DNA from: Sclerodactyla briareus
Lineage: Eukaryota > Echinodermata > Holothuroidea > Dendrochirotida > Sclerodactylidae
DNA length: 64,000 nucleotides
Assembly: GCA_026419785.1 (NCBI GenBank)
Contig: JAODTK010003765.1
Location: forward strand, 186,001 to 250,000
Reading direction: 5' to 3'
Part shown: positions 6,222 through 55,067 of the stretch, in pieces
How positions within the stretch are numbered: the first letter of the stretch is position 1
How the letters are laid out: each line of letters starts with the position of its first letter
Translations under genes and position numbers: made by a program
Notes under the pieces: model-generated
The model's input: only the letters and a program-made list of their open reading frames with translations
What the model was told of the DNA's origin: nothing
The model's database searches: none

Positions 6222-7039
6222 CAGTCGGATGTTATTGCTTACAAGTTTATTAGCGAAAAAAAAGTTAATAGTTTTGAAAAATAGGACTAGGGTAAAACCC
6301 ATATACAGTACGCCCCACGCCAAATACAAAAAAAAAAACTGTTTGTAGTATTTCGCACCACCAGGTAACGGGGGTTTTGGCGGGTTGCGTTCTGGACGCT
6401 ATCAAATGTTGCCAACGGTTAGCCTAAGTGGAATATACGTGTTCAGTGTCGTTCGATTCACCTAACAATCAACATTGGAATTCCGAAATTCAGTACATTA
6501 TTTTAGCGCCAAACGGCCAACACCGCTGATGGTAACAAAGAAAAACAAAACAGAAGGTTAGTGTTGCATGGTTACTAGTCCTCTGTTGAACCTCATTGCG
6601 ACGTCATTGTCTTTTCACAGCCCCTTTGGTTTGAGGAAACAGGCAAGATAGCAGTATACCACGCCTGTCGTATCAGCGGGCCCATCAGAATTCACCATGT
6701 GGACCCCAGAATGCATGTGTTGCATTTGGGATGAAGCTCCAAAAGCCTATGACTTCCGTGAAGCCATGCACCGACTATTGCTTGTATAACCTTTGCGTGA
6801 TGTTGGTATAGCTTTCTATTTGCCACACGAATATGCTCGAACATTATCCTAGATAGTTCATTAAAAAAGCCATGAAGAGGAAACGAGTCTGGTACATGCA
6901 AAGTTGTTCGGTCGCGGACAAACAACAACGAAACGGCTGTCCTTGACGTCAGTTATATGATTATAGTGAGTAGCTTTAAAAACATTATATGATAATTACC
7001 CATACAGCACTATATGGCTCTCCTGTTAAATATTCGGCA

Positions 7040-8836
7040 TATAGTTGGATTTTTTAGGAATCCATATGGAGTACTTAGAATATGTCGATGTTCCTCTTTG
7101 TCAAAGTCAAAACATGAGGTTATTGAATCGTTGTGGCCCAGACGTTACCGACGTGAAGTGACGTTACGCTAAGTATAGTAAGGGTGGTCAGACAGGTAGT
7201 AGCGCGTTATCGGTGTATACTGAGGAGAGCCTCGAGGATATCATACCTAGTCACCTGCAGATCTCTTCTTAAGAGACCCGTGAAGTTCATTAACAATAGA
7301 ATCCGGCCTTCCATGTTAGCGTGGTGGGCGTTTCGTTGAGCAACACTTTTACTATATTAACCGTAGTGGGAAAATATTACTTGGCAGATATCTCAGAACG
7401 AAAAACACAAAAAAAATACACATGGAGATTGAATATTTCGGTGAGGGTAGTAGTAGTTAGTAGTAAGTAACAATGAAAATCTTTTCATACGTCATGGAAA
7501 ACCGAATCAATGTAAGGTTTTTGGACGGAAACGTACTATACGCATCGAGCGTGGGAAAATGGGATACGCCGGAGAGATGTGGAAGATATTCTGTGACGGG
7601 TTCCAACGGCGCGGGAGAGTAGCGTACATCGACACGACCGTGGCCGAAACACGCCAGTCTTCCAAAGGGTCACAATCACACCACTCAATAAGCAGCGAAA
7701 TATGCGGATGGTATACAGGAGTGACTATGGGGACCACATTCCTTAGAAGTAATGATATAGCGCATCCTATTACGACGATAGTTCAAAATCTCAAGTGACG
7801 ATGTTCCAACGAATTCACAAACAATTCTAATTTGACCTTCAAACTGTATAGTTCTTCCTCCACGAGGTTGTGGTCTGGACGATTAGGGGACAAAATGGTG
7901 TCCCGTTCGATACCGCCGGTTTCGGTCCCCAATTTAAGACGAACACAAACGTCCACAATCAAGCAAAGGGCCGGGGTGACCAGTATGACTATACTCGAGA
8001 GTTTTCCTGGAATTAACAGAATCACAAGAGTGGCATGTTCCACTCACGATACGAATACATTTAAAGTTGCCTTAGCGGATTTCTCAGAGAAAGCTATACG
8101 GTGGCGCGGAACATTACTGTGAAAATCCGCCTGTTCAGAAATCACTACTACAGTTGTACGCGAATATACCAGTGGTCAGTTCAAAATTTTCAAACGTACT
8201 CCCTGGAACCAATCAAGATTTGGATGCCGGGACTATCAATCCGTCTCCCCAGAACTAACCAAATTTCTGATTGCGACGAGAATCTACCAGGTGTCCAGTC
8301 AAATTTTCAAACGATTCCCTGGAACCAATTCACAGATTTGGCTGCCGGGGACTATCATCCGTATCCCCAGAAATGACAAATGTCGGATAGAGACTGTGAG
8401 GCGCGTGATAGAGCTTACGGCGAATTCTGACCATGGCACAACGATCAAGCTAATCCCGCGAACCCCATTCTACAGACGGCAATCTTAAGGAAGGCAGCCG
8501 CATTCACTTTCAGTTATAATAGCGACAACCCCTCTGTTCTCCTGTGATGCATAATTCTGCTTGCTGGCATCTGGATCGTCTGCTCTAGGCACGCTAGGTG
8601 CGAAAATCGACGGTAACCTGAAGCCCGTTCGAAGGGAACCTCAGAGTATACCCAGTGAGATCAGCGAGGATGATGGTAGTGATCATGTACCAGCAGGGAC
8701 AGGCATTGCATTACAACCCCGGTATAGTCCGCGAGCTAAGAGGCGACTGATGATTCGCAGAGCGTGAGGAGGATCACAGTGTATATCAGAATGATGAACC
8801 ATATCCCATGAGAATATGTAGGTCCATGCTGTGCTA
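7040..8836 (+). CDS. Alpha-type receptor gene (copy A)
   Basis: Predicted single-pass type I membrane protein, function unknown. The signal-peptide exon lies at about 7040-7230 (cleavage region near 7135). After a probable intron, the first extracellular domain sits at 7480-7795, with FLDGN early and ICGWYTG near 7700. The second domain is at 7800-8120, with two further stalk-like segments to 8500. The transmembrane segment is at 8501-8590 and the cytoplasmic tail at 8591-8836, ending around YQNDEPYP. Exon limits are approximate because single-base indels break the frame several times. The layout and most residues match alpha in copy B (37779-39373), which reads more cleanly. No start codon can be fixed. 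The tail implies phosphotyrosine signalling. Confidence 0.55.
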
Positions 8837-8840
8837 ACAG

Positions 8841-11800
8841 GTGCGAAGTTCCACATATTTTTATCAAATTCAACTGCAAAGGTGGGTTGGATATGTATAT
8901 TTCAACTAAATTCAGGTCGAGGCATTATTCAATCGCACGACTTTAAGTACAAATTACCTTATCAACTAGCATTTCTGTGTATATCTATGTAGGAAGAGGG
9001 AGAGGGGAATGAAAATAACTATTACTTGCTGTCCGATGTTTATTATAGGACAGATCGCCGTGAAGGATCGCCGAAAGGCATAGCTGGCCCAAACACAGAA
9101 GCAGGTCTTTTACGTTCCGACCTTGAAGAGAAGAAGGTGGTGTGAAAAGGTGAAAACTCGTTACGACAGTGGCACCAAACTGAGATTCTCTGGTGGGAAA
9201 GTTGCCGATCTACTGGCAGACCTTTACAGCTTCAGTAACGGGTTTGTGGACCAGACACACAACGCTTCATCCACTGTGACTTTGCTCTTAGCTATAGGCC
9301 TATGCTATTTACAACGCCAGCTTGGGTCGTTGTCGGATTTTTTTTTTCTTGTATCCATCGGAAGTTTCGTTTATTCTATGTAGTCCCGTCAGTACTTTCG
9401 CCAATATTTTTATCATCTTGAACATCTAATATTTTATTATATGATAGAGGGTGCCAAATGAGAGTTAAAAATTGGTAATAGTCGATACCCGAACACTTGG
9501 GTGGATGGAAACGTGTTCATTGAAGAAGTTAGGGCTTGTAACTCCAACTTGCCTGCTCTGGAGATCCTAATACGTTGAAAGGGAGATGGATTAAAGATAC
9601 TCATGTGAAATCAAGACTTTACTCTCAGCTTCAAAGATAACGTTTGTACACAAGTATAGGGATGAGACTAGGGGGCCTTGGAAATTGTTCTTTTATTTTG
9701 ACTCACAATACCTGCCAAGAAAATTTATAATGTATTTATTTTATTTTATTTTGCTGTATTAGTGCGAGAGTATCTAGGAGAAATAAGAATGTTTTAATCA
9801 ACTGAGTAACGTTTTCGGGCTTGGGGATGATGATTCACGATCCTAATGCAAATTATGATAATAGGTCTTGTGAATGATCAGTTTACTTAGAAAGAATGAT
9901 GATGTTGCGTAATATGATAGGACTTTTCAATGGGAGTGAGTTGTTCATCACTAAAGACTCTTTACACAAGATAATTAACTTCATCGTACTATCAACTTGT
10001 GGTTTAATTTCATTTAATTAACCAGATTTCCTGGAATTATATCAGCGTTCACCATGGAAATAAATTATCCTTATGCTGCTTCAATAAACTACATAAACCG
10101 TCATTCGAATCAACACTTCCCATTAGATTATTACCTACTAAGTCCCGAACCACCGATTGCGCTAGACATAAATCAAGATTGTGGAAGTCATATTTTCAAG
10201 ATACTCTTCAAAACCGTTCTAAAAGAAAGCTTTATATTTCTATTTGATCCTTCAATCGAATTCAGAATTAAAAGAAGCTCTTTTAACACACAGAATAGTC
10301 TTGTTCTTGTGATAATAAGTGGGATTGCGAGCAGAAAATGCAAATATACTTCGAATTTAATATCACATACTAAACAACTTCTATTTGGTAGACAATTATC
10401 ATTCCCGAGGAGATTTCGTCTTATACAACTAATAATTAAATTATCCCGTGAGTTCATTGTTTGCAATTGCCAATTTAACATCTTTGAACTTCGTATGAGA
10501 AAAGGAATTCCAGATTATTTATAACAGATAAAAAAGGCAGCACAAAGGAAAATCATAGTGAACGGGTAGATAATTGACTTCAATTTTTGTCCATTTTTCA
10601 CATAGAGTTTGATTAGTAATTTTCATATTAGCATCTGTAATTTGGATATATTTAAAACAAATGACTGCCAATGTAGTACTTTCTTTCTTTGTGTACAGTT
10701 GAGAAATAAACGAAAGGAAGCGAAAAAAAATACCCATCATTATAAGAAAGCCAATTTTGGCGCGTTTTCCGGAATTGTTTTTGGTTGTCAAGAACGGGAT
10801 GGAGAACTTTTAGGTGATGGTGGCATGCTCAGTGGCTCTGCTGTCGTTAATATTTAATGGGAGCCCTTCATTAACTTTTTTCAGAGTTGCTGCTCACTTA
10901 TTTACTTCACTTACTTGTGCAATAATTGTCTGATGTACTTCTCGTACCTTTTATACTTTTGGTTGTTCGTCTCCTTCCTCTCACTTTCTAACGTGAATAT
11001 CGGCACCTGCTGACCAAGCAGCAATCCTCACTCACAGAATAATAACAACATTGATGTGTGGACGTAAAGCAACCACAGCTATCTGCAGGGGTGATGCAAT
11101 GATGACAACATATATTCAGTATTGAATGATGGATTTTATGGGCGAGCCAATGTACAAACTGCTCCTCCGTAAAATATAAAATCTTACACACCTAACGATT
11201 TATAGGATCGTGGCGCGAGGAATGTACAATTACTTTCAGCGTGAAAACGATCATGACGCTGCTATTGTTACGCTAGGCGCAATACTCGTATTATGTTTTA
11301 AACAGTACGTGCTATTGCTGTTGTCTTCGTTGAATGATATTACCAACTCAGAAAATTAAGTTGGAAGATGTAGTCAACACAATGTGAAAACTGGATGTCA
11401 TTCAAAATCATCAGAAGTGCGAAAGGGAGAGATGACTAACATTGTGCTTCAAATGTTCACTCATACTTATTGCACCCAATACGTAGCAGAAATGTCAAGG
11501 TCTCGATATGCAAATAGAGCATCAATTTATTGAAAGGGCAACTCGATACACATGGTAAGTTCAACAAGAGTTACTGAGAGTCAACTAATGAAAAATAATT
11601 TGGTATTCTACATTGTATTCTCTCGCAGCAACCGTCCACAGACACGCAAGCCAAAACAGTTAAAAAAAAACATTCTTCGAAGACTCTCCGGAGAAACTAG
11701 CCTACTTTTGCACAAAACTTTACCAACATCGTTTTCCAACACTTTTGAGGCGATGAGAATTGGTTGTTCGATTTAGTCTAGCGAGTGGTGACAGAGTAGT

Positions 11801-13838
11801 CATATCGATTAATGTAAGGAATAATACTGTGAGCACCTATGTGAGCATTCCTGCTTTATTGTGACCATGAACTGGTCTCCATGTTAACTGTGTACTATGA
11901 TTATGGCAAAAGCACTCGACTGAATGGACGCTCGCTAACTAGTGTATCTAGGATGAACTATAGATTTTTTATTTTCCATAAAATTGCACTGTACCGGGGC
12001 GTGGCCAATAGCTAGAAGATGAGGGTCCAGCACAACGACGAGCAACGGTTTATGTGTGCAAAAGATATAGCTTGTGGAAGTCATAATACAACTTAGTGCG
12101 CTGGACCTCCTCCTCCTCCTGGTTGTGCCCTTCCACTAGTTTTACAACCAGCAATGTCCATGACGCCAGCCTGTATGCTCACGGATTTTAGCCAGCCCAT
12201 GAGGACCTCTCGTGGCTGCGAGATGGAAGCAATTCAATGGTCATTGTCCACTAAATCACCCGCAAGAAGCCATAAATCACAGTTAACGACTCAGACTGGC
12301 ATCGCTCTCGTTACTGCTAAGCATAAAGGGTCACACGTCACGTGCGACGCGTAGCACTGATAGCCACTATTCTATCCATACCATACATTCTGGCGGCATG
12401 TTATTGGTTGACGTAGCATTTCTTAGTGAGGAAAAAAATAAGGTTGTGAAGCACAACAGTCCAAGTTGCAATTTCCTGGGCTTCTAATTTCGTTCTGCAC
12501 AGCAATACTATAACTAATCTTCATATTAATTCATTATATGTAATTCAGATGCAAAGTCCTGGACGATTGATTTTGCCTACACAAGTCGCCAGGTTTTTGA
12601 TTTGACGCACTTGTACTCCGACATCAGTGACATCCTCATCTCGATGCCAACAACCAACACACATCCTCACTTCCCTCGATGGAACCCATCACAACAATCG
12701 GCTTCTCTTAGTCCAGGGACAAGAGAACGAACTTAAATGGCCTCACATGGGAAAGACTCAAAGCATTGTATAAAATATGAATGACGCGTAATTATGGGCG
12801 AACGCACTTTCTCGGGGCCTTTCGCTCCCTACCCTCTCCGCGCTTGGAACGACCACCAACCCTTAAACTAAAATGATTACAAGGAGACTACAGTGAATAC
12901 ATATCTTTCCCGTTTTTGCACTTGTAACGACGCAATTTCTATTTTCACCCTTGCCAATTATTACTATATCATCATTTTTTTATATTGCCCAATGCAAAAT
13001 CAAAACAATTGTGAATGACTAGTTTTCACATGGCCGAAAGGCTCATGGCTGGTAGAATTAACGTTCTAAACAAACCGAGCGCTCAAGTTCGTGTTGTACC
13101 AGTTTTCACTCAAATTGTCTGTACCCCCTTGAAAATGCGGCAAATCCGTTCATTATGGTGATGGTACGTTCATGGTTTCGATCGAGTAACGTTTGTGGAG
13201 AAGTCAGTCAGCAGGACAGTTTATCTGTTCTGGAACTCCTTTTGCATGCTCCTATCGTGGGTATTCGTGTCTGTACGCCAGTGACGTTCGACCTCAGTTA
13301 TTATATTTCACAGGACGTTCATCCGATTCCAGCTGTGAACGGGCTTGTTGTTATTAGAACCGTCCTTCTTGGGACGACCCCAAAATTTCTCCGCTCTTGC
13401 GTGATGGTGTTATAGCTGACTTCCTGTCCGTGAATCGGACACGCCATTTCCTGACATGATAATTGATGGAGATTCGTTACTCTTCTCCTCGAATCAGTCT
13501 CTCGCGGAATGACAGAGCGTATTTACACACAGGTTAGGGGCAAATCTCTGCCATTCCATTATCGAAGATAATTGCCGCATGCAATTGAATGTATCGGATT
13601 TCTTTCGCTCATCTTTTCATAGAGGAAATAATTGCTATTGTAATGAGTGAAAGAAGGAACTCGTACCAACAGCAGTTAGCGTTTGGTATCCACGAGTATG
13701 TTTACATTGGATAAGAAGAAGATCGTCCTGAATCTTGTTTTGGGAAGCTAATTACCAAAGTCATATAGAATAAATCCACTCATATACCAACGTCAATATA
13801 TAATCACTTATATATCACTGTATGAATTTTGATGGTAA
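8841..13838. other. Intergenic DNA between alpha and beta (copy A)
   Basis: AT-rich DNA, conserved with 39376-42370 apart from one insertion in A (10931-13068). A 156-codon open frame at 10054-10524 is not preserved in B, where the same bases carry stops and indels, so I do not call it. No other exon signal was seen. Confidence 0.6.
10931..13068. other. Insertion present in A, absent from B (unclassified)
   Basis: In B the flanks join directly near 41462: the left flank resembles TGTGC(C)AATAAT and the right flank CAAACCGAGCGCTC. No transposon domain, clear inverted ends or target duplication was found. It could equally be a deletion in B. Confidence 0.5.
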
Positions 13839-16800
13839 TTGATGGAATTCACTGAGGGGATGACATGGAATCCTCATCGATCGATCTTCTTTGTTCACCT
13901 CTGTTTTTCGTTGATAGGGAGCTCCGTCGCCCAGACTTGTTATCGACTTCGAAGGGGCTACAATATGGAAAGCTACCAAACAGGTGTAGAGAGTTACACG
14001 TTATATAGGAAACACTTACTATATTGCACGATTACTGTCGAGCTATGATGAGGAGCTCTATTTGATTTTCGTTGGCAATAGAACCACTTCCGCGAAACCG
14101 TCTACGGAGGAAACTAGACAGTATGCATATCGCTCAGCCTGAAGCAAGCATTACACTTGGATGGCTATATCGAACACGCGCAATACCGGAAGCCAAACCG
14201 TGACCCACTCATAAATGATAGTCCGACGGCCAGGGTTCATGGGAAGGAAATATATAAACCTTCTTAGGATCGGAACAATGCGCTGCCGATATGGAGTCAT
14301 TCAAAATAGACGCGCTCGCAAGTCAAGAAACGCATCTAGCAGGAAGCGGGGATTTTATCAACGACTACAATAGGAAAAAGTTTCATTTTTCCTATGGGCG
14401 AACAGGAGAAGATCAGACTGGGATCGGAGTTGGTATGATGGTAAGAGAGAGAGGGGATCAAAAGAAGAATGCAAGGAGGTAAGCGACAGAATTGTATGTT
14501 AAAAATGTACCCATTTCGACATCAAGTGATCAGGTAACGGCCTAGGCCTCCCAGCCAACATCAATCGATGTTAAACCGTAGGAGCGAGGAGGAAACCATT
14601 CTATTTTGCGCGCCTATGAACCCCAACGCTACCTGTTTGTGAACGGACTCCCCGACATCCGAAAACATGTTTTCCGGTTACACTGGAAGCATCATAAATC
14701 CGTATCAGCAAGAGGGATATACTCTTCATCGCAGGGGATTTCAACGCAAAGACAGGATATCGAGCTATTGAACCTACAAAGGTCCTTGGGAGATGGGTAC
14801 GGAGAGGAAGAGGATTAGTCAACTCAGAGGGAGAATGACGTCATCGGATAGCCAGCAGGCAGAGACTCTACTAGCCAATACTCCTTTTGATCACAGCAGG
14901 CCCATAGGACGACATGGGAGAGTCCTCACACAAATCACCACGTTAGAAACCAAATCGATAACTAATCATGAGGAGGAACACAGTTTCTATGAAACGATGG
15001 AGATCGTAGCCGGAATTCAAACTTTTTTCTGAAACACAGGCTGGAATGGCTGGTAACCTTAACTGGTACTGAAAACATACAGAGACTGAACAAAAAATCG
15101 GAACTCAGCGTTTTGCAACATTGACAAAATCAGAGGCGGACAAGAGTTTCGATATGACGACAGTGTGAGGAGAAATATCGACATAACGTATAGGCCTAAG
15201 CGGACGTACCGTACCAAGAAAAATGAAACACTATCAATTCTGCTGCATTAAGCATCGGAAGAAGTTTTGGGGTATAAGGGAAAAGCCACGGACACAAAGA
15301 GGGCGTTCCATAATCCACAGATACAAGTTCTGTCAAAAGAACAGAAGTGGCTGAGAGGAGAGATACAACTCTGCCAACAACGAGGACCGATGAGATTCTC
15401 GGAGAATTCAAAAGGAAACAAAAAAATGAGGGAACCGATCCAAACTTGAGGAGCTGGAAAAGGAGAAATTATTGGCGAATCGAAGAGATAGAAGCGTGCA
15501 GGGATGACTCAACCAAAATGTACAAGGCAATACGCAAATCCATAAGGAATAGGCCCAAGCAAGACATAGTTATAGACATTGGGAAATGAAATCACCGCCA
15601 AGGGAAGAGGAATCCATCTATCATAAGGGAATGGCTCGAGAAGCGCTTTTAACCGAAAACAACCAAAGTGTGTTCCCAAATGTTGCTCCAACAAAATGGA
15701 AATTCATTCTGGAAATGAGGTGAAATTCCTTTAAGAATGATAAAGTGCGAGGAAGGATGATATTATAAGCGGAACGCTGCATTTTAGCCCGAAAATATCG
15801 TCATTGTTGGTATAGCAGACTTTTTGACACCATAGAAGAACTGGAACCTATCCAGAGAGATCAACGGGGTTATTCTTATACCGCTACCTGACCAGGGAAG
15901 AAAAAAGGACCTCCCGGTAACCTACGGCCTTTTACATCCTCCCTGAGCTCCTTCGTAAAATACTTGCTATCTGCATGAAAAAGAAAAAATTTATTCCAGG
16001 CTGAACATCCCATTCCAATTACCCAAGCGCTTATAGTGGTTGACGCAGCACCACGGAGCTCTGTTCACGGTCAAACTCTAAGGCCGCAAAAAGCTGTTAC
16101 CTCCACTCCTATGAGATCACGTCCTCTGCTGGATATAGAGCAAAGCCCTTCGATAAGGTTGATCGCGGAAAACTCGTCGAAAAACTTTTGAAAGTCAGAC
16201 TGAATCCCGACGAACTCATCTACTCTCAGTGTTAGTAAAGGACGGAGTTACGAGCCATACTGGGCCATCTTGGGAAGATCGTTCACTACAATATTGGGTT
16301 TCCCCCAGGGAGACTGGTGTTAAGGTCCGTGCTGTTTTCGTCTTTATTTAAGCGGAGGCACTAAAGAATACATCGTTGGATCATAATACGCTCAAATGGA
16401 GACTCCGAAAAACAAACCATCCCCCAATCATGGTCAACATTTATAGTCAAACCTTTCTTATCATCAGCCTTTATGTCGACCAGCGTACGGACGACGGGGC
16501 GGATGACATAGGGGGGGGGGGGCCCTTGGTGAGCAACGGCAAACTAATAACAACAATGTAGTCAAAGACCAGTCCCGTTGAAACTGCAAGCAGAGGCCTG
16601 GAAATTAACAGCACTAAACTGAAGAATACACATAACAAGGGAGGGAACGCGAAGACTGGAACAGTGCAATAATTTGGAAGCCTAATCGTAAAAGAAGCCA
16701 ACGCGTCGGAAGAAACTCTCTATGTCACTTTCGCGCATATCATTCGATTCTCACGACCCGAGAATGATTTGAAGACCAGGGTTCCGCTATTTCGATGGCT

Positions 16801-18365
16801 AATTTCTCCAGTGATTCCGATACAACGAAGTTTGGAGTTTAACGACAACCATGGGAACGCTATCGATGCTTCCCAAAGGATTCTATTAAAAGTTATGCTG
16901 AGGATCAGTTCGGCCATACACTTTAAGCAGCGACGACTTGTACTACCGCACACAAGTGAAACCATGTAGTGAGAAGCATCACAAATAGAAGACTAGATGG
17001 GTGGGTCATCTGCTGAGGCTGCCAGCCGAACCAAAAACCCGGCCAGACAAGCTTTGGAAGAGGCGGAAGAGGAAGCCAATAACACCTGGTACAGCAGAGA
17101 GTTACCGCAAGACCTCAAAACTTAGACAAGACTTCCATATCTCGAATCGACGCTCTAGCAGCATTACAAGTGACAGAAATATGTTTAGAGCAAATCACCG
17201 TGGCAATGCGCCGTGCCGACAACGGCGGAATAGCGTGCCAGACGACGCGAACGACATAATGGACTAATGGACCGAAATACCTTCGCCAGCAACCCACAAG
17301 AAGGTATCCATCATTCATATTACGAAGCAACCATCAGCGAGCACGTGTAGGTGGTACATTGTAGAAGACGTACAATTATACCGGAAGGAACTCGTATATA
17401 TATTCTGGAAGATATACTGTAGATCAATCCTATTAGGCAAGTGCTCACAAAACCTTCAATTGACCCTGTTTCCTACATTTCACTGTCACTCTACCTACGT
17501 CACATGCCGTAAGTACACCTGCACGATATGTATTGGATGATTCAGGGGAGCAACTGTGTTCTTCTTGATGTCGCCGGAGTTAGCATCAATTTCCAGACCG
17601 ATACACAGTTAGAACTAAACCATTCCTCGGAAGAAACCACCGTGTCATATCTGAACTCCCCGCGGAGGAAAGGAATACTAATTGGCATGCTCCTCTACTT
17701 TAACACAGATGCCATGGTGGTAACCACTGCGAGTCTCTTTTCGGAAAGGAAAACGAGCACATCATGAGACGTGTGGCATGTGATCCGTAACCTATCTACC
17801 TCGATTGGAACTCACAAGTTCACCACCAACTCCTCAGCGAAACTGAGGAACAATTTCTTCGCCGAAGTGACCAATCTGTGATGTATTGTACAACAACCTA
17901 AACCCTCGGCGATCCGAGCCAGAGCGGAAATACCCTAACCCCCGCTATACCCAGACCAACAATGGAAACCACAGTACCACTGTAGGTCCCCATCAAATTT
18001 CGATGGAATTATCCGCTGACGGCAGTCATATAAAGAGGACTCCTTCACATATGAAGTTCAACCATTTCCAGTTCTGATTTCGACAATGATTCTGTTTTTC
18101 CTCGTCATAATTGGTTTTGCTCGCTGGTCCATATGGGAAATCTCCGTCTCACCAATGCTAGGTTGAGGACCCGTCCGATACTGAGCCCTGTACAGGCAAC
18201 CCCGCACCAATTCATAAAGAGTCCGATATTGGTCAAGTGATTGTGTACCAGCAGGATGTCAGGCATTCCCCGTGTATGTCGCGAGCTCAACAGAGCCGTC
18301 TGAGGATTCTCAGAGCGAGGAGGAAGATCACAGCGATATCAGAACGATGAGATGTGCGCCTCCAC
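13839..18365 (+). pseudogene. Beta-type receptor gene split by a LINE (copy A)
   Basis: The signal-peptide exon (13839-14048) reads in one frame through a hydrophobic stretch (IFFVHLCFSLIGSSVAQT) typical of secreted proteins, then a YTLY motif shared with alpha and gamma. A 3-kb LINE (14204-17255) then separates it from the first extracellular domain (about 17255-17460), the second domain (17460-17770), the stalk (17780-18060, with DGSHIK before the membrane), the transmembrane segment (18062-18140) and the tail (to 18365). The tail keeps VYVASSTEPSEDSQSEEE and RYQNDEMCA. The LINE sits where an intron would be, so the gene could still splice. It is marked as a pseudogene because of the insertion and frameshifts, but this is not certain. 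Confidence 0.55.
14204..17255 (+). mobile_element. RTE/L1-type non-LTR retrotransposon, decayed
   Basis: The endonuclease begins near 14291, with an ETHLAGSGDF block followed by GIGVGMMVRE. A second catalytic block, AGDFNAKTG, is at about 14730-14760. Reverse transcriptase pieces follow at 15800-16520: a PGNLRP block, a damaged first catalytic Asp block near 16130-16170, a VPQGD-like turn near 16300, and a scrambled ADDI near 16500. The C-terminal region (16700-17250) contains RRLDGWV..LLRLPAE, typical of this group. Many frameshifts are present. B has only about 130 bp at the same place (42771-42900), so the element entered after A and B separated. No target duplication or poly(A) tail could be fixed. 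Confidence 0.8.
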
Positions 18366-18529
18366 AAATGCTTAACTTAAATTGGCTGCTCATGAAATAT
18401 GCAAGCTAGGCTTTTGCAGACACAATAGGTCATCAGATTGTCTAAGGTAAGCATATTGATCACAATGAATATTGTGAGTATCATACGATCTGGAAACTTT
18501 GCCAGGTGGACCTCCAAATGTTCGTTCCT

Positions 18530-19110
18530 TTTACGGTATCGCGCATACTAGGACAATGGTTATTAGCCCATGGAACATTATGACTCTTTCCAGGTCAAAG
18601 CCAATAATAATGAAGGGCATATGGAACATTATGTGGAAAACTGCGAATGCTTTCCTTCTTCCACATTTAAGTTGGCTTACTTTTTACCCTGTCGCGACTA
18701 GTGGTACCGCGGGGTTTTTTTTTCAGGATTTAGGGTCATTAAAGAGACATAATGAACTTTATGTAAAGATATGCCCCAGAAAATCTGAGAGTATTTATCT
18801 ACAGAGGCCAGCTGGAGACCCATCATACTCCTACTCAGTCAATGTTATCATGGGTTATGGTACTCCCCGGAGTATCAAGGATTTCAGGTCGGAGGACAGT
18901 AAACGACATTACTGTGCGATTGTGAAAAAGAAAAAAAAATGCTAACTCTTCTCATCTACAAATAAGACTGAATTACTATTTACTCGGTCAGTGTCATTAT
19001 GGACAAGTAGTAAGGTCACTAAAGAGGCATTAGAGCCATTATGTGTAAATTGTATATAATACTTTCTCCCATAAAGGTTCTAAAAACATGCAAACTTGTT
19101 TGATGATTAA
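18530..19110 (+). repeat. Degenerate tandem repeat, about 125-155 bp period
   Basis: Four related units share a core of GGTCA-TAAAGAGGCAT followed by ATTATGTG and AAACTGC; cores begin near 18595, 18731, 18885 and 19010. A second shared phrase, GGTCA(A/G)TGTTATCATGG, recurs between them. Copy B has the same array at 44220-44760. A 148-codon open frame across it looks incidental. Confidence 0.6.
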
Positions 19111-19789
19111 GAACCAGCCATACTATGGATAATTTTTTCTGCCATTAAGGATTCTGTCAGTAGGAATTTTTGACAAGTGGCCGAAACAGGAAGGCCAATA
19201 GCGAATGAAGGGGTTGTACAAACTATTATAGAAGTATTGAGGTTGTCTTGTTATTACTTTTTTAAAGAACTTCTTCAGTCTATAATCTCATTGACACCAG
19301 CCACTTGGAACATTTGGGACCAACAATGTGACTGTGAACTGCCCAAGATTGATTTGTCAATTCGACCCTAGAAATAAAGTAAAGGAAGAATAGACGTGCC
19401 ATTAATTATAACACCATCGATACTAAAATCAATGACTTCTGAATGGATGAAATAAGACTGCAGAGATTTGCTCATTTGCAACCTCTTGAGTTAACCAATT
19501 TGTTACAGATATTATCATGCAATTCCCGTGCAGGGTACGGTTCCCATCATATATTAGTAGCGTATATACATTGTGAATGTAACTTCGAGCTGACAATAGG
19601 CAGATCATTTATATCCAACAAGAAAAGAGCCAATGGACCAATAATTAATGACCCTGGGGGACACCAGTTGGTGGATTCTGTCGAGTACTGGGGGTAATAT
19701 TTAAAAAAAAAAAAAAAATGTTCCGTATGGGGACGGTAATCTTGAACCATTTCGACGGAAGACTGCGAATCTCGTAATGACGTCATTTG

Positions 19790-20801
19790 CAGGGGCGCGC
19801 CACAGGGGGAGGGGGGCAGGGAGGGCGCCCCCCCCCTATGGTTGGGGCCGAAAAAATACTATGACAGAATGATGTTTAATACACACGTTTCGTCGGGGTG
19901 GGGGTGTGAAGGGTCAGGATACGTTATGCCAACTTAGGTTACTTCTATTCGTTCTCATAGGAGACTCAAATCGAGACTCAAACTGTTGCTGTATATAGCG
20001 TCGCAAATGTAGCGTATGTTTACCGTTTTGAGAACAACTGTCGTCATTATGAGCCACCGTTTGTTAATATTAAGGGAAAGGACTCAATGTTAACTTGCAA
20101 ATTCGCCAGCGCCTCGGCTATGGGAACACGTGGCTGCATGATCACTCCGACCCAAGCCGATTTACGCCATAGATAGATTCCAAAACTTGCTTTAGTTAGA
20201 CGACAAAAGCTACACGGTGGACTAGACAGGAGGTCCCTTCGCGTGAAACCGCCTACGATATGAAAGGGAAGACGAAGCATCAACAGATAATTTGCGGTGA
20301 CAAAGAGTAGCAGGGGAGGGTACCACGGCGAGGTGGGTGCGTGCCTTTTTATTTATTAAGTAAGAGGAATAAAAGCTATGTCGTTATATGAAAAAGAAGA
20401 ACTTTGTCACCGGAACGCTTTTTATTTCTACCGCACCAATCGTCTTTAAGTTATGAAAGTCTGCAAAACCCAAGGGTGCCGCATGAGGGAGTGCGAGGGT
20501 GACACCAGGCAGCGTAAAATCATATTTAAAAGGGGATTGAAACAAGAACGGGGCAAGAAGAGAGCCTAGGAAGGGACTATAGTTGTACTTGCATAGGCCC
20601 GAGCGTAAGTTATTTAGGTAGGTGTTGAAGTATGAATGCTCCCAATTTGTGGCATTGTCACTCTAAAACTGGTGTTTAAAGTTACGTCAAATGAGTGATT
20701 TGGGGGATCCCACCATTTCTTTTAGAGCTTACGGTTGAAGGGAGTCTCAAGACATTCTATGCCCATCTGCCCCCCAACGCACAAACCCAGCACCGCCCCT
20801 G
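19790..20801. mobile_element. Non-autonomous hAT-type element shared by A and B
   Basis: It begins CAGGGGCG and ends CGCCCCTG, an 8-base inverted terminus. Flanking octamers GTCATTTG (19782-19789) and GTTCATTG (20802-20809) look like a degraded 8-bp target duplication, the size hAT transposases make. No transposase coding is visible in 1012 bp. The orthologous copy is 47225-48708, so the insertion predates the A/B split. Confidence 0.7.
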
Positions 20802-20940
20802 GTTCATTGTACAGAAAAAAAGCTCAGTTATGGTTAAAGGTTTCAAAAGCCTTCGAAAAGTCGAATAAATTCCACTTTGAGTAAGTTTTTTATTTATTGG
20901 TTTTTATACACGAACCTGGTAGGAAGGAAGTTTAACAACA

Positions 20941-22479
20941 CGCTCTTAACCTTTTTGTTTATTATAGATCTTGGAAAATACAGGCAAGACAGAAAATTGA
21001 GTTCTATAGTACGTTTGTCAGTTTTCTGTCTTTTGCCTGGTATATATAGGAGACAACGCGGGCTCTTTAAGAATATTAGACATATCACTACTAACAAAAG
21101 AACAAATAAGATGTGACAGTGGTCGGGCAACTAAATGGCTAACCGTCTAACTTTCCACTATACGCCCCTTGACTTCTGATACAATCGACAATACGTCTCA
21201 TCATTGGAGTAAAAGTACATAGAATGATCATACAAAGTGAATTATTACTTTCCGAAGGAAGAACAAGGAAGATACTCGGCGTACCGTTGAAAGCTTGAGA
21301 ACCACAGTTAAAAGTTTTGGCGAACAAGTCCGGTTATAGTGAGTGACGCCATGATTACTTATCAGCTACAAAAATTATCTACAAAATAGACCGAGGGATG
21401 GAAGAGGTTATGCATGCGTGGAAAATAATGCCGATGATTTTTTCCAAGTCCTCCAATAGTTGGTTAAAAAGAAATCATAATTACAATGATGAACTTCGCA
21501 ATACGCATACAGAAGTCACCCCCCCCCCCCCCTAGTTTTGTTTTTTAACTTTACATAATTCAACTTATTCTGATGCGGAAGATGACAAAGCACAAAAACG
21601 TAGCGCTACAACAATGAATTTGATTTCAGGATGTTTAAATCAGAGGAAGAAGGGGCGTTACTTCAAACAGCAGAGCAGCTGTACAAAGAAAACAGACATA
21701 TAAATATATGATCTTTCAAAAATATCCTTTTTCTGACGGAACATTCCGCTTCGAGGTTTTCCCACCGCGGAGAGAAATTAGCCGGCAAAAACTTACCTAT
21801 GGGGTAAAAAAAACATTACATATAGGGTCTGCGCGTGCAGGTTTAAACGGATTGCGATTAGTACAGTGGGGCAAAAAGACACCAAACATTGGTCGTTACC
21901 CCTTCACAATTGTTTCAAATCTAACCTTCAATATACGCTTGCGCCGTTGCAGACCAGTAGGGAACAGGTTCAATTTGGGTCTACATCAACCAGTGAAGGT
22001 ATAATTTGTCAGCTGGTCTAATCAAATCGAGTATCGGAATCGACTACACATTTTGTTATAAGAGAGAAGTAAAAATTAGGGACACTATAAAAAATGGAAT
22101 GGAAAATGGGTTTACTTCAACTTTTTCTCTAGGTGGCCTTCGATATGACTCTAAAACGATAGGAAGCAGGCACCACTATGGGAAGGCGTGCATACAAATA
22201 TGAGCTGTTCAAATGTTGGGCTGTGTGTGAGCAATCTACATTTTTCGTGGCACAGTTTTATGCAATTAGTCAGTAGGAAATTACAAAAGAATTGTTGGAT
22301 CAAATTCCTGACAAAAACTGGTTTATTTCAATTACTCTTGTTGTGTTCCTATAACACATATCAATTTATTTACTCCCAACTACCGAAAATATTAAAGAGT
22401 CGAAATGCGAAAAATGGATCAATCGTCGCAAATGACTGTATGTGTACATATAACAATTATGGTATTTGAAAGGGTAGCG
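20941..22479. other. Insertion present in A, absent from B (unclassified)
   Basis: B runs directly from AAGGAAGTTAACAAC (48840) into TCATCGAATTTCTTCG, which in A are 1.5 kb apart. The extra DNA holds a hairpin (20981-21039), a run of C near 21520 and small open frames with no recognised domain. No clear termini were found. Confidence 0.5.
20981..21039. repeat. Inverted repeat (hairpin)
   Basis: The left arm (20981-21000, CAGGCAAGACAGAAAATTGA) pairs with the right arm (21018-21039) with small bulges; the loop is about 17 bases. It lies just inside the A-specific insertion, so it may be a terminal structure of an unknown element. Confidence 0.65.
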
Positions 22480-25400: not shown

Positions 25401-25640
25401 ACTTATTCTAAACCTAATTAAAACCACATGCTAAGACGGTTGGCAATAATACAAGGAAGTCTAATCACAAACAATTTGATGCATTCCCCTGATGACTAAG
25501 CTTGGCATGTCATTAAAGTCTAGTTTCATTTGTCCTCAGAGTCCATACAGTTGAGAATATATTTACACGTCTCCAAAGTTATTCATTCCCAGTGCTCCGT
25601 CGAAGTAGTTCGTTTGGGCGTGTCACACACAACTCATTCT
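22480..25640. other. Conserved intergenic block upstream of gamma (copy A)
   Basis: Matches 48841-51580 in B along its length. Patches such as 23045-23200 (a short open frame from an ATG, containing PIGDTAVVVGAPAKD) and 25086-25394 (a 102-codon frame) are similar in both copies but frame-broken in B. They could be unrecognised exons. No family was recognised and I do not call a gene. Confidence 0.45.
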
Positions 25641-25649
25641 TGCATCTGT

Positions 25650-28195: not shown

Positions 28196-28677
28196 TGGTT
28201 TTCGATAATGTTATCATCCGAATGTTTAAGTCACATATTGTTCGCTGGCTAAAGCTCGAGTATGATCAGTCAAACTTAACGTGACATTACTTTAAAAAAA
28301 ATCATGTTCCAGCAGGTTATTGCTCGTTCAAAACTTTCGGACAGCGAATCAGGAAGTTAGCAGTTCATCTCTGCACTTACCTCTATTGTGCAGTACATGG
28401 TTTCTTCAAATAAAACATTTCCAGAGATCCACCAAGCTGGATGGACCCGCATAAAAAATGTCAATGTTAAGATTAACCTAATAATTAAGTTGAGCGATAT
28501 CTGTGGAGCAGAGGAGGAACCTGTTCATCAAGGGAGAGTGTAGACCGCGACACAGATACGCGGAAGAAGACCATGCCTCTTTGGCAGTACTTAATGTGTG
28601 CTGGGGATAATTACACACTAGCGGCTGCATGCATTGGCCTACCACTCAATTGCTACCGTCAGTCTCTTAATATGAGG

Positions 28678-28827: not shown

Positions 28828-28830
28828 GGG

Positions 28831-30689: not shown

Positions 30690-30805
30690 AAACCGGTAAA
30701 TAAGGGTGGTCCTTCTCCCAAGACGCGCGAAAGCGTGATGGTAACACCAACTACAAGGGATAGACATTTTGATCGTCGTTATCAGGATTTCGACCTGATA
30801 TGATC

Positions 30806-37778: not shown

Positions 37779-39373
37779 ATTTTTCTAGAATCCATATGCG
37801 AGTACTTTAGAATAGTCGATTGTCCTCTTTTGCAACGTTACATTATGTTATTTGAGATCGTTGTGGCCCAGACTGTTAACGACGTTGAAGTTCTGACGGA
37901 ACACTTATAGGACACCGTAAGGGTGGTCAAGCACAGGTATTAGAGAGTATACGTTGTATACTGAGGAGAAGCTTGCGAGGATATGATTACCTGGTACCTG
38001 CAGATCTCTTCTTAAGAGACCTGTTTAAGCTTCATTAACGATAGATCCGCTCTACATGTATAGCGTGAGGGGGGTGAGCAACACTTTTACTATATACCCG
38101 GAGTGGAAAATAGTACTGGCAATGTCTCAAACGAAAAAACCACCAAAAATACACGTGTAGATGAATATTTCTGGTGAAGGGTAGTAACAATGAAATTTTT
38201 TCATAAGTCATGGAAACCGAAATAAATGTAAGTTTTGGAGGAAACGTACATATACGCATCGAGCGTTGGAAACATGGGATACGGACGGAGAGACTGGGAG
38301 ATATTAATTGACGGATAAACGGCTCGAAGTACATTGGCACGACCGTGGCCAACACGCAGTCTCAAAGGGTCACAATCACAACCCCTCAATCATCAGAAAA
38401 TGCGGATTGTACCAAGTAGTTACAGGGGACATTATTCCTTAAGCAGTGGTGATATAACGCATCCTATTACGACGATAGTCAAAATCTCAAGTTGACTCTG
38501 TTTCCCACTTTCACAAACATTCCAAACTTGAATTCCACTTGTTATAGTTTCTCCTCCACGGTAGGCTGGTCTGGACATTATGGGACCACATGGTGTCCTT
38601 TTGATACCGCCGGTTTCGGTCCCCAATTTAAGACGGACACGAACGTCACAATCAGGCAAAAGGCCGGTGATACCCCTATGACATACTCGGAGTATTCCGG
38701 AATCAACAGAATCAAAGAGTGGCATGTTCCATTCCGATACGAATACATTGCAATTGCCTTCGCGGATTTTCTTTCAGATGAAAGCTACGGTGGCGGGAAC
38801 ATTACTTGTGAAAATCCACTTGTTCCGGAAATCCGCTACTACAGTCGCAGGAAATCTACCAGTGCCAATTCAAATTTTCAGACGACTTCCCTGGAACCAA
38901 TCCAGATTTGGACGCCGAGACTACCTGACCCCGTCCTTTCGCAGAACTAACCAAATTTCTGATTGCGACTGTGGGCGTGTATGAAGCATACGGTGAATTC
39001 GGACCACGCCATACCCGGTCAATCTTAGGAGGGCACCCCTCATTCATCTTCCCAGTTCTAATAGCGACAACCACCTCTGTTTTTTTCCTCGTGATAAATT
39101 CTGCTTGCTGGCATCTGGATCGTCTGCTCTAGGCATGCTATGTGCAAAGATCCGATGGTAACCTTAGCCCGTTCAGATGGAACCTCAATATACCAATGAG
39201 ATCGCGAGACTGATGGTATGATCGTGTACCATCAGGGACAAGTCATGCTTTCCAACCCGGTATATGTCGCGGCTCAACAGGCGTCTGATGATTCTCAAGC
39301 GAGGAGGAAGATCACACACAGCGTATATCAGAATGATGGAACCATATTCCTATGAGAATGTGTGTCCATGAGT
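37779..39373 (+). CDS. Alpha-type receptor gene (copy B), best-reading example
   Basis: The signal-peptide exon (37779-38000) reads LLFEIVVAQTVNDVEV in frame, with cleavage expected at VVAQ/T. The first extracellular domain is at 38190-38480. The second domain and start of the stalk are in one uninterrupted frame of 152 codons (38492-38950), with GWSGHYGTTWCPFD, FKTDTNVTIRQKAGD, YEYIAIAFADF and GGNITCENPLVP. A second stalk segment repeats a similar phrase. The membrane segment (39041-39135) begins FIFPVLIATTTSVFFLVI and then shifts frame by one base. The tail ends near 39371 after NPVYVAAQ, DSQ, YQND and YENV readings. No similarity to a named family was recognised; Ig-like folding is possible but unproven. 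Confidence 0.6.
39140..39373 (+). other. Cytoplasmic tail exon of alpha with NPVY, YQND and YENV
   Basis: Pieces in three frames give NPVYVAAQ (39257-39280 region), SDDSQ, VYQND (39325-39342 region) and YENV followed by CP and a stop. NPxY is a PTB-domain binding motif, and Y-x-N is the consensus for Grb2-type SH2 domains. The motifs are visible; their use in signalling is inference. Confidence 0.6.
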
Positions 39374-39375
39374 TT

Positions 39376-40364: not shown

Positions 40365-40411
<47 letters not shown>

Positions 40412-42370: not shown

Positions 42371-42379
42371 GAATTCTGA

Positions 42380-44069
42380 GGAATTGATATGGAATACTAC
42401 ATTAGAATATATCTACATCGATCTTCTTTGTCACCTTTGTTCTTTTGTAGGAAACTCTCCGCGCCCAGACCTGTTATCGCCTTCGACGTGACTATGATAA
42501 TGTGAAAATCATCCCCCAAAAAAACAAGTGTAAGAAGGTACACTTTTTCATATGATTACCGTATCATATGGTTACGATTATTACTATGATTATACGATTA
42601 CTTGTCGAGTTATGATGAGAGGACTCGTTCAATGTTTCGTTGACAATGGATCCCCTCCATGACCATTACAAGGACACGAGAACAGACGTATTTCCATCAG
42701 CTGACGCCTAATCATACACCAAGCCGGTATATCAAATCAACGAGCAGCACCAGAAGCCACATGTAGGCTAAATGTTTCGGTGCAGAGTCATTACAACATT
42801 TTTCTCCTACATCACGAAGAACGAAATACTCGTTAAATTTCGAGAGGCACTACATTCCGCCTTCGAGTGAGGATATTACGTACATTGGTGAGAGCGGAAA
42901 ACTTTTGATGGGCTATAAAAATGGACTAATGAATGGAAAGACCTTCGGCCACACAAGCGCCAACGATAAGCTCCAATCATCTATTACCAATAACCAGTCC
43001 GCGAGAACATGTAGATGGTACAGTCATATTATTCTTTCTCGAATCTCGCCGGAGTTTGGGAATATAAGTCCTAGAAAATATTAATGTAGATCATCCTATT
43101 AGGAAAGTGCTTACAACCTTCAATTGACCTGTTTCCTACAAATTTCAATTTCCACGTTAATTCTACACTTACTTCACTGCCGTAGTACACTGCACGGATT
43201 AATTATTGGATATTCTGGGGAGCAACGGTACCTTTTTGATGTCGTGGAGTTTAGCTCAATTTCCATACGATACGACAGTTATAATTAAACAAATTCTCTC
43301 GGAGAAACCACCTGGCCAATCTGAACTCCCCATTGAGGAAACGGAATCACCTAAATTGGCATGTTCTACTTATAGCACAGATGCTGGTGGTAGTCACTGC
43401 GAGTCTTCTTTCGGAGAGGGAATACGAGCACGTTCAAACTGAGACTTGTGGGCATGTAGATCCCGTAACCTATACTACCTCCGGGTTGGAACTCACAAGT
43501 TGACCACCAACCTCCTCAGCCGAATGAGGAACAATTTCTTCGCTACAAGTGATCCGATATGTGAATGTGGTGTAATACAACCTAAACCCCCGGCGAATCC
43601 AGAGCCATAGCGAAATACCCCGCTATAAATACCCAGACCAACAATGGAAACCACGATACCGCTGTAGGTCCCACCTCAACTGTTTTCGATGGATTATCCG
43701 CGACGGCAGTCATAGGGAGAGGAATCCTCGCACATATAAGTTACCTTTCCAGTTCTGATTTCGACAACGATTCTGTTTTTCGTCGTCATAATGGTTTTGC
43801 TCGTTGTCATATGGAATCTCCGCTCTCTCACCATGCTAGGTGTGAGGACCCGGCGATACCTGAGCCTGTACGAGGCGAACCCCCCGGACCAATTCATATG
43901 AGAGTCCCGATATTGACCGAATGTTGTGTTAACGCATCAGGGACGTTCCATGCATTTCAACCCGGTGTTGTCGCCGAGCTCACCAGAGCCCCGTCTGATG
44001 ATTCTCAGATCGCGAGGAAGATCCAGCGTAATATCAGAACGTGAGATGTGCGCCTACACAAACGTTTAA
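42380..44069 (+). CDS. Beta-type receptor gene (copy B), uninterrupted by LINE
   Basis: The signal-peptide exon is at about 42380-42560 (CTTCTTTGTCACCT... then GCGCCCAGACC, matching VAQT of copy A, frame-shifted). The first extracellular domain (42880-43110) includes MGYKNGLMNGKTFGHTSAND and TCRWYSH. The second domain (43110-43450) includes LGSNGTF and a KLACSTYSTDAGG phrase. A stalk follows to 43740, then the membrane segment (43743-43815, PVLISTT..LFFVVI with one shift). The tail ends at TAA 44067-44069 directly after AYTNV, so the C-terminus is well defined. The intron between the first two exons is about 300 bp, against 3.2 kb in copy A. Frameshifts remain. Confidence 0.6.
44000..44069 (+). 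other. C-terminus of the beta tail: YQN...AYTNV-stop
   Basis: TATCAGAACG is followed, after a one-base gap, by GAGATGTGCGCCTACACAAA and then GTTTAA. This gives YQN-x-EMCAYTNV and a stop. It is the C-terminus with the clearest stop in the family, and it matches the YQND...YENV arrangement of alpha. Confidence 0.6.
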
Positions 44070-44219
44070 CTAGTTTGGCTGCTCATGAAATATGCTAGCT
44101 AGGCTTTCGCAGCCCCAATAGGCTCATCAGATTGCTCTAAAGGTAAGCAAATAGATCACAAATTGATCTTGGCTTAATTCAATCTATCCGATCTGGAAAC
44201 TTTTGCCATGTGACTCCTC

Positions 44220-44760: not shown

Positions 44761-44769
44761 TGTTAAATT

Positions 44770-46522: not shown

Positions 46523-46530
46523 TGTAAATT

Positions 46531-48708: not shown

Positions 48709-48715
48709 GTCATTG

Positions 48716-51580: not shown

Positions 51581-51584
51581 TTGC

Positions 51585-53560
51585 GGAGGATTTGCCGAAT
51601 TACTCTGGCTCGTAAATTTATATCATTCTGTTCCTCGTTTTGGACGCCCATATTAATGTGATGGGCTGCTCTGTGGCCAAGACTGTATCACTTCGAAGTG
51701 ACTCAAATACTAGTGGGTGAAGGTTATTAGACAGGTGAAAAGAGAGAATAACCATGATATCGATTTACAGTTACGTAATAAACGATCAACCTGTTGGTCT
51801 CTATTGAGCAGACCTCCAATGAGCTTCTTAACAATTAATCCACATTTAACGCTCATCCGGCCAACACCGAGTCGCATCTCCACTTCATTCATCAGAGTAG
51901 ACCATGTGGAGCGAAACAAACGACCTGGAAATACACTTGTTAAGGGAGGCTTAGAGGCAGGGTTCGCGGGGGGCATGTCAATTTCTTACATCATGAAGGA
52001 CAAATATATGTTAAGTTTGCACGGAAACTTACATATACGCAATCGAGCGTGAGACACTGGGTATGTTGGAGAAGTGTGGGAACTATTATGTGACGGATAT
52101 AATCAGGACCAATGACGTATTATCCGGCAACGCAGGACCCATCAAAGGAACCAACAAGAAGTAGTTATTTTACTACCATCGCAGAACATGCGGATGGATG
52201 AGGGTATTCGTGGTTCGGCATAGATAACTCCGTAAGTAGTCTGAAATAATACAATCAAGGAAAGTGGTCCTAATTCCAGTGACTCTGCTTCCTTCGGATT
52301 ACCATAATTCGACAATTAAATTGAACGTTTATGTACCCTCACGCGATGATGCACTGGGACGATTTAGGACAAAAATGGCTTGACCTCAGATGCATCTGAT
52401 TCTGGCGAACTATTCGAAACAAACACGGACTTTTTGTTGTCATGATCGAACAGAGGCCTGGAGAAACACCTTCAGCATATATGAGAGTTATCCAGAAAGA
52501 AACGGTATAACCAAAGTAGTGTGTTCTTATGGCACAGATGTAATCATCTCCGTAACTGCTGTTCGGCGGTTTTGGTATGGATATACCCTAGAGGAGTAGT
52601 ACTGTAAATCATTCTATTCAGGCAAAGTATTTTCTCATCTCCGTGACTCGCTTCCTTCGGAATTTACCGTTAATTCAACATTAATCTTCACTGCGATAGT
52701 ACCCCTCCGCATGGATCATTGGACGATTCTAGGACAAATGGCGAACTTCAGATGCTATGGTCTTTGCCGACTATTTCGAAACAAACACGACTGTCATGAT
52801 CAAAAAGGGCCTGGAGAAACAACCTGAGCAGGGTACTAGATGAGAGTTATCCGGGAAGAAACGTATCACCAAAGTAGTCTGTTCTTCTAGGGCACAGATG
52901 CTTATCTCCGCAACTGCTGGTCTTCAGTCTCTGGGAACAATGAAGACGCAGTTACCCTTGTGAACATCCATTCGATTCCGGAATCGGTTCAACTTCTGCA
53001 CAGGAACCCACAGTTCAAGTTCCATCTTAAGACGACAACCCTCCGAATTAACAACAAGATACCCGCCATGAAACAGAATAACGGATGAATTGACTGTGTG
53101 CAAAATACGGACGACTCGGGGAATTTGAACCAAATAAACCATCTCGTGGCCCAGAGCACTCATGGGTACTACTATTCAACATTATTGGCGCCAACAGAAG
53201 TACAATGACTTTTTCGCAAAAAGCACAGTCATATGAAGGAACGCCTGAGTATCCTTCCAGTTCTGATAACGACAACGTTTCTGGGGTCTTGTCATTATAT
53301 GTTGTTGATTGTCATTGGATCATATGTTTGTCTTATCTAGGCATCGTGATGAATGCGGAAGACCAGACGGTACTGAACATACGAGAAGGGGAATTCCGGT
53401 GAACCAGATGAGACGCTGAAGAAAGGCCAGCGGTAGCTCTCTACTGAAGGATCTGAGGGACCTGTGATGCAGTATAACCACGGTTTATACCGAGCTCCGC
53501 CAGGATGCTCCGATGATTATCAGGCGGAACAACGGCGTTGTTGTAGTGATATTATCATCC
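51585..53560 (+). CDS. Gamma-type receptor gene with duplicated domain exon (copy B)
   Basis: The signal-peptide exon is at about 51585-51800 (hydrophobic SVPRFGRPY-region frame-shifted, then GGCCAAGACTG, matching the VAQT site). The first extracellular domain (52010-52250) ends in an AEHADG or CGWM reading, depending on frame. The second domain occurs twice in a row (about 52330-52600 and 52690-53070). The stalk runs 53070-53235, the membrane segment begins LPVLI at 53243, and the tail runs to about 53560 with YNHGLYRAPP at the place of YNPAY. The exon repeat is absent from A and, as far as visible, from C. Frame breaks are frequent. Confidence 0.5.
52256..52965 (+). repeat. Tandem duplication of the gamma second-domain exon, about 355 bp per copy
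   Basis: Both halves contain the same ordered phrases: GACTC(T/G)CTTCCTTCGG, TTCGAAACAAACACG, GGCCTGGAGAAAC, ATATGAGAGTTATCC (damaged in the second copy) and GGCACAGATG. The two are diverged, so this is unlikely to be a simple read-stitching copy. Confidence 0.7.
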
Positions 53561-55067
53561 GAATTTTCGGTCACATATCGTCATTGGCTAATTCAAGTCA
53601 TGCATCAGTCAACTACCATGACCTTCCTTTAAAAAAGAAAAAGCTGAGGGTCTAGTTTGAGAATTTTAGACCCTGCAAAAGCCGGGATTATTCGGCTCAT
53701 CAGTGGTTTTTATTTCTGTGAGGTATGGATCAAATTGGCGCGCGTTATATTCATGAACGTTCAATGGATTTTTATTATGAATTATACATCTGTGAGAAGA
53801 AAGGTAAATTCCAGGTGGACTTCCGGTGTCATAATTATTCTCCCAGATTACATCAAGGAGAGCCAACAACGGCCAGCTAAACTCAAATGGATCCACGATT
53901 GATTTCTTGTGTCAGAAATGCGCAACCATCTACAATCCAGCCCGTCACCGCGTCAATATCGACGTTGCTTTGAAACACGCCTGAGTTGCTGGATGAATGT
54001 GATTACTCCTTCATACCTCATTTTCCGAACTTGTTTGATACCCAATGTGAATAGAATTACACCGTGTTCTAAAACCGTTACGAGGTGTATTGCATATTAT
54101 ATTAACATCGCAGAAAACGACAGAATCGGTTTTTTTTTTAATCTTTCAGGGAATGGAATCATAGAACGTAATCCTGCTCGTAAGATTTCAAGAAAACAGA
54201 CTGCTACTAGTGATATGCTCGGTGGTCAGCTAGGTCTTCATGTTCTGTCTCCTATTTCTTCAAATGTTGTACATTGCTACTCTCACCTGTCTATGTATGT
54301 ATGTATGAGTATTAATTATGTATGTATGTATGTATGTATGATGTTATGTATGTATGGTATGTAGGTATGGAGAAGAACTGCGAAAATCAGCTTGTGGTTT
54401 GTATATAGAGAATTAGTCTGTGACGTTAATCATAGAAAGGGAGGTTCACACTTCAAAAACTGTTCATTACTAAACATGAACTGAGTGAATATGAGCCTTC
54501 CCGATATAAAACACGGATAACGAACGATTCTATTTCCCGATCATCGATATGTCCCAGCAGGTTTTTGCTCGTTCAAATGTCGGCAGCGAATGAGGAAGTG
54601 CAGTTTCATCTCTGCACTCACCTCCAATGTGCAGGGTACATGGTCTTCCTTCAGATAACAGAGATCCACCAAGCTGATACCCGTCATCAAATTTGCCAAT
54701 TTAATAGACACCTACAAACTTATTGTTGGAGCGATATCTGTGGAGCGAGGGGCAAACCTTGTCTATTCAAAGGAGGGGTACGATTATTTAATGTTGAGCG
54801 GGGGATGGTAATTAACACCCACGCGGCTGCATGTCATTGGCCTACCACTCAGTTTGATACACCAGTGTCTTATCCGAAGCGCCCACCGTATGGAACGAGC
54901 TGCAACTATTTAAGGGTTTGGATATGCAGCAACATCATCCGAGTCTCGATCCCTGGGCGAAAAGCCAACTCCTTAATCTAACAAATAGTCATGTATTAGA
55001 GCTCGACCAAAGTATCTTGCCGAAAAATCAGTTGTCAGATTCACTTAGTCACCCAAGGACGCAGAAG
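53561..55067. other. 3' flank of gamma (copy B)
   Basis: Matches copy C 3116-4700. It includes the segment missing from A and a decayed ATGT microsatellite. No independent gene was recognised; a 138-codon frame at 54565-54981 corresponds to the broken 4250-4600 region in C. Confidence 0.5.
54293..54365 (+). repeat. Interrupted (ATGT)n microsatellite
   Basis: Orthologous to 3956-4029 of copy C, with several interruptions. Confidence 0.9.

Follow-up and report, generated by a model that had tools for sequence, protein, structure and literature searches.

Gene copies and repeated blocks in the window

The window, by which we mean the whole stretch of 64,000 bases analysed here, contains no N and carries an array unit of ~20 kb that DNA alignment places twice in tandem. 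Block A (6222..28546, plus strand) gave collinear DNA matches of 70-82% to 36951-55040, the extent of block B on the same strand, and a partial block C (2264..4694, plus strand; 70.8% to 52709-55040) corresponds to the end of a third unit. Some stretches of block A have no counterpart in block B and vice versa, so the blocks probably represent separate copies in the genome, a reading we favour over that of two haplotypes set in line by the assembler.

Seven related gene copies, all on the plus strand, occupy the blocks: alpha, beta and gamma in A and again in B, plus a gamma C truncated at its 5' end. Alpha A (7082..8830) comprises D1 (7082-7424), a mid segment (7450-7790), D2 (7800-8150), a stalk containing a 0.12 kb tandem repeat and a membrane/tail segment (8490-8815), and alpha B (37822..39370) repeats this order with D1 at 37822-38159, mid at 38170-38480, D2 at 38480-38836, within the open frame 38453-38947, and membrane/tail at 39040-39362. 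In beta A (13876..18370), a ~3 kb insert separates D1 (13876-14198) from mid and D2, which run from 17256 and are followed by the membrane/tail at 18060-18370; beta B (42400..44065; D1 42400-42760, mid and D2 to ~43480, membrane/tail 43740-44065) is free of a long insert. Gamma A (25660..28160) has an 858-base insert (26815-27672) before the stalk and its membrane/tail at 27835-28160, gamma B (51600..53560) has two D2 copies (52282-52569 and 52645-52925) and its membrane/tail at 53245-53560, and gamma C (2264-3130) starts within D2. The sequence-only reading had described seven clusters built on one plan; seven homologous copies with collinear segments were indeed found, but gamma C lies outside the interval 6222..55067 to which they had been assigned, and the beta A insert, the gamma A insert and the second D2 of gamma B had gone unmentioned.

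That reading had also divided each copy into separate exons, which the alignments did not bear out: no long gap interrupts the ~1.2 kb over which alpha B aligns with beta B. The genes may thus be almost free of introns, and alpha, at ~1.55-1.75 kb, could be one such gene with 515-585 codons or so. The beta A and gamma A inserts could be either introns or insertions, and they suggest that some copies are broken. Frameshifts are present in every copy as read.

Differences between the blocks look like read error. Across eight long alignments, seven between A and B and one between C and B, all together mostly non-coding, mismatches amounted to 8.5-12.8% and gap columns to 10.2-17.4%, the transition/transversion ratio was 0.34-0.78, and 694 of the 992 gaps were of a single base. 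On the strength of the last two figures the window is error-rich DNA, and the presence of retrotransposon pieces marks it as eukaryotic. Between blocks A and B, A/C and G/T exchanges form the largest substitution class (597/1426, vs 512 transitions), an odd spectrum for either error or mutation. At 55421-56045 and 62632-63206, arrays of a similar repeat of 34-36 bases differ in regularity (88% matching and 2% indels in the first, 68% and 15% in the second), a hint of uneven read quality across the window. Positions 40366-40407 are 42 consecutive C. Stop-to-stop frames of at least 100 codons on both strands number 43 in 6222-55067, vs 12-28 in 20 dinucleotide shuffles. Scans of the DNA with Rfam (gathering threshold) and for tRNAs were both empty.

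Mobile-element content was gauged from eight hand-picked frames of the window put to Pfam, four of which had weak matches to retrotransposon-type families, each under the curated cut-off: an endonuclease/reverse transcriptase piece (792-1172, minus strand; E 4e-5), an integrase core (57472-58071, minus strand; E 6.4e-4), an RNase H piece (E 0.053) and a zinc knuckle (E 0.034). The integrase core and RNase H, in separate frames, make up Gypsy-like retrotransposon pieces at 57472-58924 (minus strand). The zinc knuckle belongs to a second retroelement between blocks A and B (30773-32269, plus strand), which also holds putative protease- or reverse-transcriptase-like strings that had no Pfam match. 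A further string, presumably resembling reverse transcriptase and likewise without a Pfam match, is found at 19550-19858 and 46994-47293 (both minus strand); as it occurs in blocks A and B alike, it was probably inserted before the block duplication. Transposon pieces adjoin the receptor-like genes, and none of the segment models of these genes matched the pieces at E 1; in these comparisons nothing emerged for the counter-case raised with the original description, that the patches might belong to a known transposon.

Homology among the three gene types

Homology among the three paralog types covers most of the gene. At the 3' end all have in common a segment that reads as a membrane span (hydropathy marks it in five of the seven copies) and, after it, a tail of ~85 residues. 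When DNA models of D1, mid, D2 and membrane/tail from one type were searched against the other types, a match at E 1e-3 or better was obtained in 11 of 12 cases (three type pairs, four segments), on the plus strand and in collinear order, the sole exception being the alpha-beta mid (E 0.045). The best cross-type E values were 8.1e-9 for D1, 4.9e-16 for mid, 1.6e-16 for D2 and 1e-5 for the stalk, the last between beta and gamma only. Four membrane/tail models, from each of which one type or more had been withheld, detected the remaining types with E values from 5e-32 to 1e-4, with the best match in the window outside the seven membrane/tail segments at E 2.2. The alpha-plus-beta model found the gamma copies at E 1.2e-26, 9.7e-14 and 2.2e-11; the gamma model found all four alpha and beta copies; the beta-only model found both alpha and all three gamma copies; and the alpha-only model found both beta and two of the three gamma copies, missing gamma C.

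A frame-aware protein comparison written for this analysis pointed the same way. For the ectodomain without D1, all 12 cross-type pairs, which share sequences and are not independent, exceeded all 60 shuffles (z 5.9-18.1), and the plus strand outscored the minus strand in 12/12, the sign expected of coding on the plus strand; most minus-strand scores were above the shuffles too, a consequence of homology at the DNA level. Homology by this test was weaker in D1, where 6/12 pairs lay above 100 shuffles and the plus strand was ahead in 7/12, with a beta A piece that lacked most of its D1. Upstream parts of 1.2 kb each exceeded 20 shuffles in six of the 12 cross-type pairs, all of them alpha-gamma or alpha-beta B, and in none of the beta-gamma pairs; the beta A-beta B pair failed as well, owing to the beta A insert. 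Together with the Pfam searches described below, the cross-type DNA models and frame-aware scores give good support to the earlier proposal of tandemly arranged relatives that are laid out like type I membrane proteins and whose ectodomain is of no recognised kind.

The short motifs by which that family had been described proved more uneven. The DNA models make the membrane segment near the C end homologous in all seven copies (FPVLISTTILFFVVI as read in beta B, FPVLISTMILFFLVII in beta A), and a hydropathy scan (19 residues, mean at least 2.0) marked five of them, together with 12 other places. The PVLI said to open this segment was present, as an exact match in forward frames, in six copies but not in alpha A, with five further occurrences elsewhere on either strand. 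The AQT head was confined to both alpha and both beta copies (4/7) and absent from every gamma, with six further occurrences elsewhere on the plus strand, and the signal peptides supposed to end there were not confirmed by hydropathy, no 19-residue stretch at the AQT heads reaching a mean hydropathy of 2.0. The stalk motif (N/D)GSHxK was retained in gamma A (27802) and beta A (18018) but in none of the other five, beta B having DGSH without the K. In the tails, YQN codons, read in whichever frame is open at each site, were found on the plus strand in 4/4 alpha and beta copies (alpha A 8784..8792, alpha B 39326, beta A 18337, beta B 44032) and in 0/3 gamma copies. A second motif follows YQN in alpha B (YENV) and beta B (YTNV) and is absent from alpha A and beta A as read, and YTEL is present in the tails of gamma B and gamma C, two of the three gamma copies.

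Divergence of tails and ectodomains

The original description set tails alike across all types against divergent ectodomains. This held for the alpha-beta pair, whose mean identity was 0.598 in the tail, 0.501 in D2, 0.495 in mid and 0.484 in D1, but not for alpha-gamma (tail 0.520, D2 0.543, mid 0.540, D1 0.510) or beta-gamma (0.520, 0.551, 0.483 and 0.455, respectively), in which D2 is slightly above the tail; the mid values exclude beta A. Within types, identity was 0.64-0.78; for shuffled pairs, compared two by two in another test, it was 0.42-0.49. In bootstraps, alpha and beta came out as each other's nearest in 299/300 for the tail, 2/300 for D2, 32/300 for mid and 49/300 for D1. The likeness of the alpha and beta tails may reflect either an exchange of the tail or a faster-evolving gamma tail, between which three types cannot decide, and the bootstraps are no proof of module exchange because unequal rates, with gamma evolving fast in its tail, would produce an identical picture. 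A bolder version treats ectodomains and signalling tails as separately evolving modules, with ectodomains exchanged on a shared tail and the locus generating new specificities, for example in allorecognition. Its basis is that alpha and beta have a tail in common, alpha D1 and mid are nearest to gamma, and the D2 segments of alpha and beta are the farthest apart; we regard it as quite improbable.

Block differences were similar inside and outside the genes (mismatch 0.116 vs 0.113; gap columns 0.113 vs 0.121), so selection, including dN/dS, is not readable from the comparison of A with B. Over all genes, differences at codon positions 1 to 3 were 0.118, 0.132 and 0.180 with the phases of block B and 0.134, 0.124 and 0.118 with those of block A, a codon-position signal that is weak in the first case and absent in the second. 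The open alpha B frame is a local exception, with 6/111, 12/114 and 21/112 differences at positions 1, 2 and 3; its length of 165 residues is within chance, the longest frames of 20 shuffles being 129-226. With the tail/ectodomain contrast also confined to one type pair of three, the data lend no support to the original description's step to recognition receptors under diversifying pressure, which stays a hypothesis.

Search for relatives, proposed function and alternative origins

To place the family, readings of the alpha, beta and gamma copies were compared with known proteins, bearing in mind that noisy readings limit the Pfam, PDB and protein searches alike and that the protein search needs exact shared words of five residues, which read errors destroy. 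No Pfam family scored above its curated cut-off. Three Pfam hits were set aside as chance: DUF7086 (E 0.21, 11.9 bits vs a cut-off of 27), whose query opened with 23 mistyped residues and which was gone from a beta reading free of them; VD10_N (E 0.12, 12.6 bits vs 25); and the integrase-domain family Phage_int_SAM_3 (E 0.0023, 18.6 bits vs 22.6), seen with beta B only, one of six readings. Neither an alignment profile nor a D1 reading found a PDB relative at E 5, and Fc receptor-like protein 5, a lone weak match (E 0.29), was at chance level. In the word-based search of 5.8 billion proteins, an alpha reading retained 0/472 candidates at E 10 and a six-sequence alignment of readings, from which gamma C was left out, 0/7275 at E 1. 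The integrase piece, run as a control, matched 25 proteins among 397 candidates (best E 5.7e-12, 37% identity), including one EukProt entry and one protein named for Patiria miniata, so the database does hold eukaryotes, although probably not the source species. AlphaFold on D2 of alpha B alone, the longest open D2, yielded a mean pLDDT of 31.9 and no usable fold, alpha D2 had no match in viral contigs, and a literature search in general words for this plan returned nothing related, which is no proof of absence from print.

We lean towards reading the locus as a tandem array of undescribed, perhaps lineage-restricted single-pass type I membrane proteins that are receptor-like, with a role in recognition or adhesion; from their layout, the copies are most likely surface receptors or adhesion proteins. 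D1, mid and D2 would then face outward and bind ligands, held off the membrane by the stalk. YxN motifs dock Grb2-type SH2 domains, and the tail tyrosines of alpha and beta (YQN, then YENV in alpha B, YTNV in beta B) may be phosphorylated and recruit SH2-domain adaptors; the gamma tails differ in motif, two of the three having YTEL. The family as a whole might serve recognition or adhesion at the cell surface, differences between ectodomains conferring different specificities on related signalling tails.

Of the other origins considered, the one that survives best, although we judge it unlikely, is a decayed tandem family in which most of the one-time membrane-protein genes have become pseudogenes, their frameshifts a mixture of true mutations and read errors. 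The inserts of beta A and gamma A, the truncated gamma C and the frameshifts in all copies agree with decay, as does the frequency of 3-base gaps, which are not in excess within genes (15 of 272 gaps, vs 37 of 632 outside). However, the low transition/transversion ratios and the predominance of one-base gaps over mostly non-coding alignments are more like read error, and ectodomain similarity between types is higher on the coding strand. Very improbable, in our view, is a captured and amplified family of mobile-element or viral descent that encodes an envelope-like protein or surface glycoprotein, with signal peptide, ectodomain, membrane anchor, short tail and few or no introns. The possible near-absence of introns and the retrotransposon-like pieces within and beside the blocks would suit it, but the eight hand-picked frames tested did not reveal a polymerase or integrase piece next to every copy, and the ectodomain found neither a viral contig (alpha D2) nor a Pfam envelope family. 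Least probable is a cnidarian Alr or other Ig-type allorecognition family too divergent and noisy for recognition, since, although the Hydractinia proteins Alr1, Alr2 and their relatives have the same overall plan in excerpts of PMC11067881 (clustered single-pass membrane proteins of low overall identity, with pseudogene-like members), our readings met no Pfam Ig family, no PDB relative at E 5 and no relative in the protein search.

In general plan the receptor-like family that we favour resembles Alr and the Botryllus fuhc locus. According to the same excerpts, domain layout and AlphaFold put the Alr proteins in the Ig superfamily (PMC11067881), whereas the present family, in noisy readings, had no Pfam Ig match, no PDB match at E 1e-3 and no usable fold. 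In Botryllus, as excerpted from PMC3691228, the fuhc locus consists of two linked genes, fuhc-sec and fuhc-tm, the latter membrane-bound with three Ig domains. Linked genes, one of them membrane-bound with extracellular domains, are a likeness to our locus; the two genes described there differ from the repeated block found here, and the protein search found no sequence kinship. The kinship with Alr or tunicate histocompatibility proteins to which the sequence-only reading had pointed is without sequence support among the 472 and 7275 candidates, none of which scored, in a database that may or may not hold Alr proteins.

In several animal lineages, self is told from non-self by tandemly repeated surface receptors that vary in the outer part and resemble each other in the tail, and these families arose from different parts. 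An ectodomain that matches nothing known would add another independent case of such receptor families, and, given accurate sequence, a tail and an ectodomain that tell different histories would offer a direct test of module exchange.
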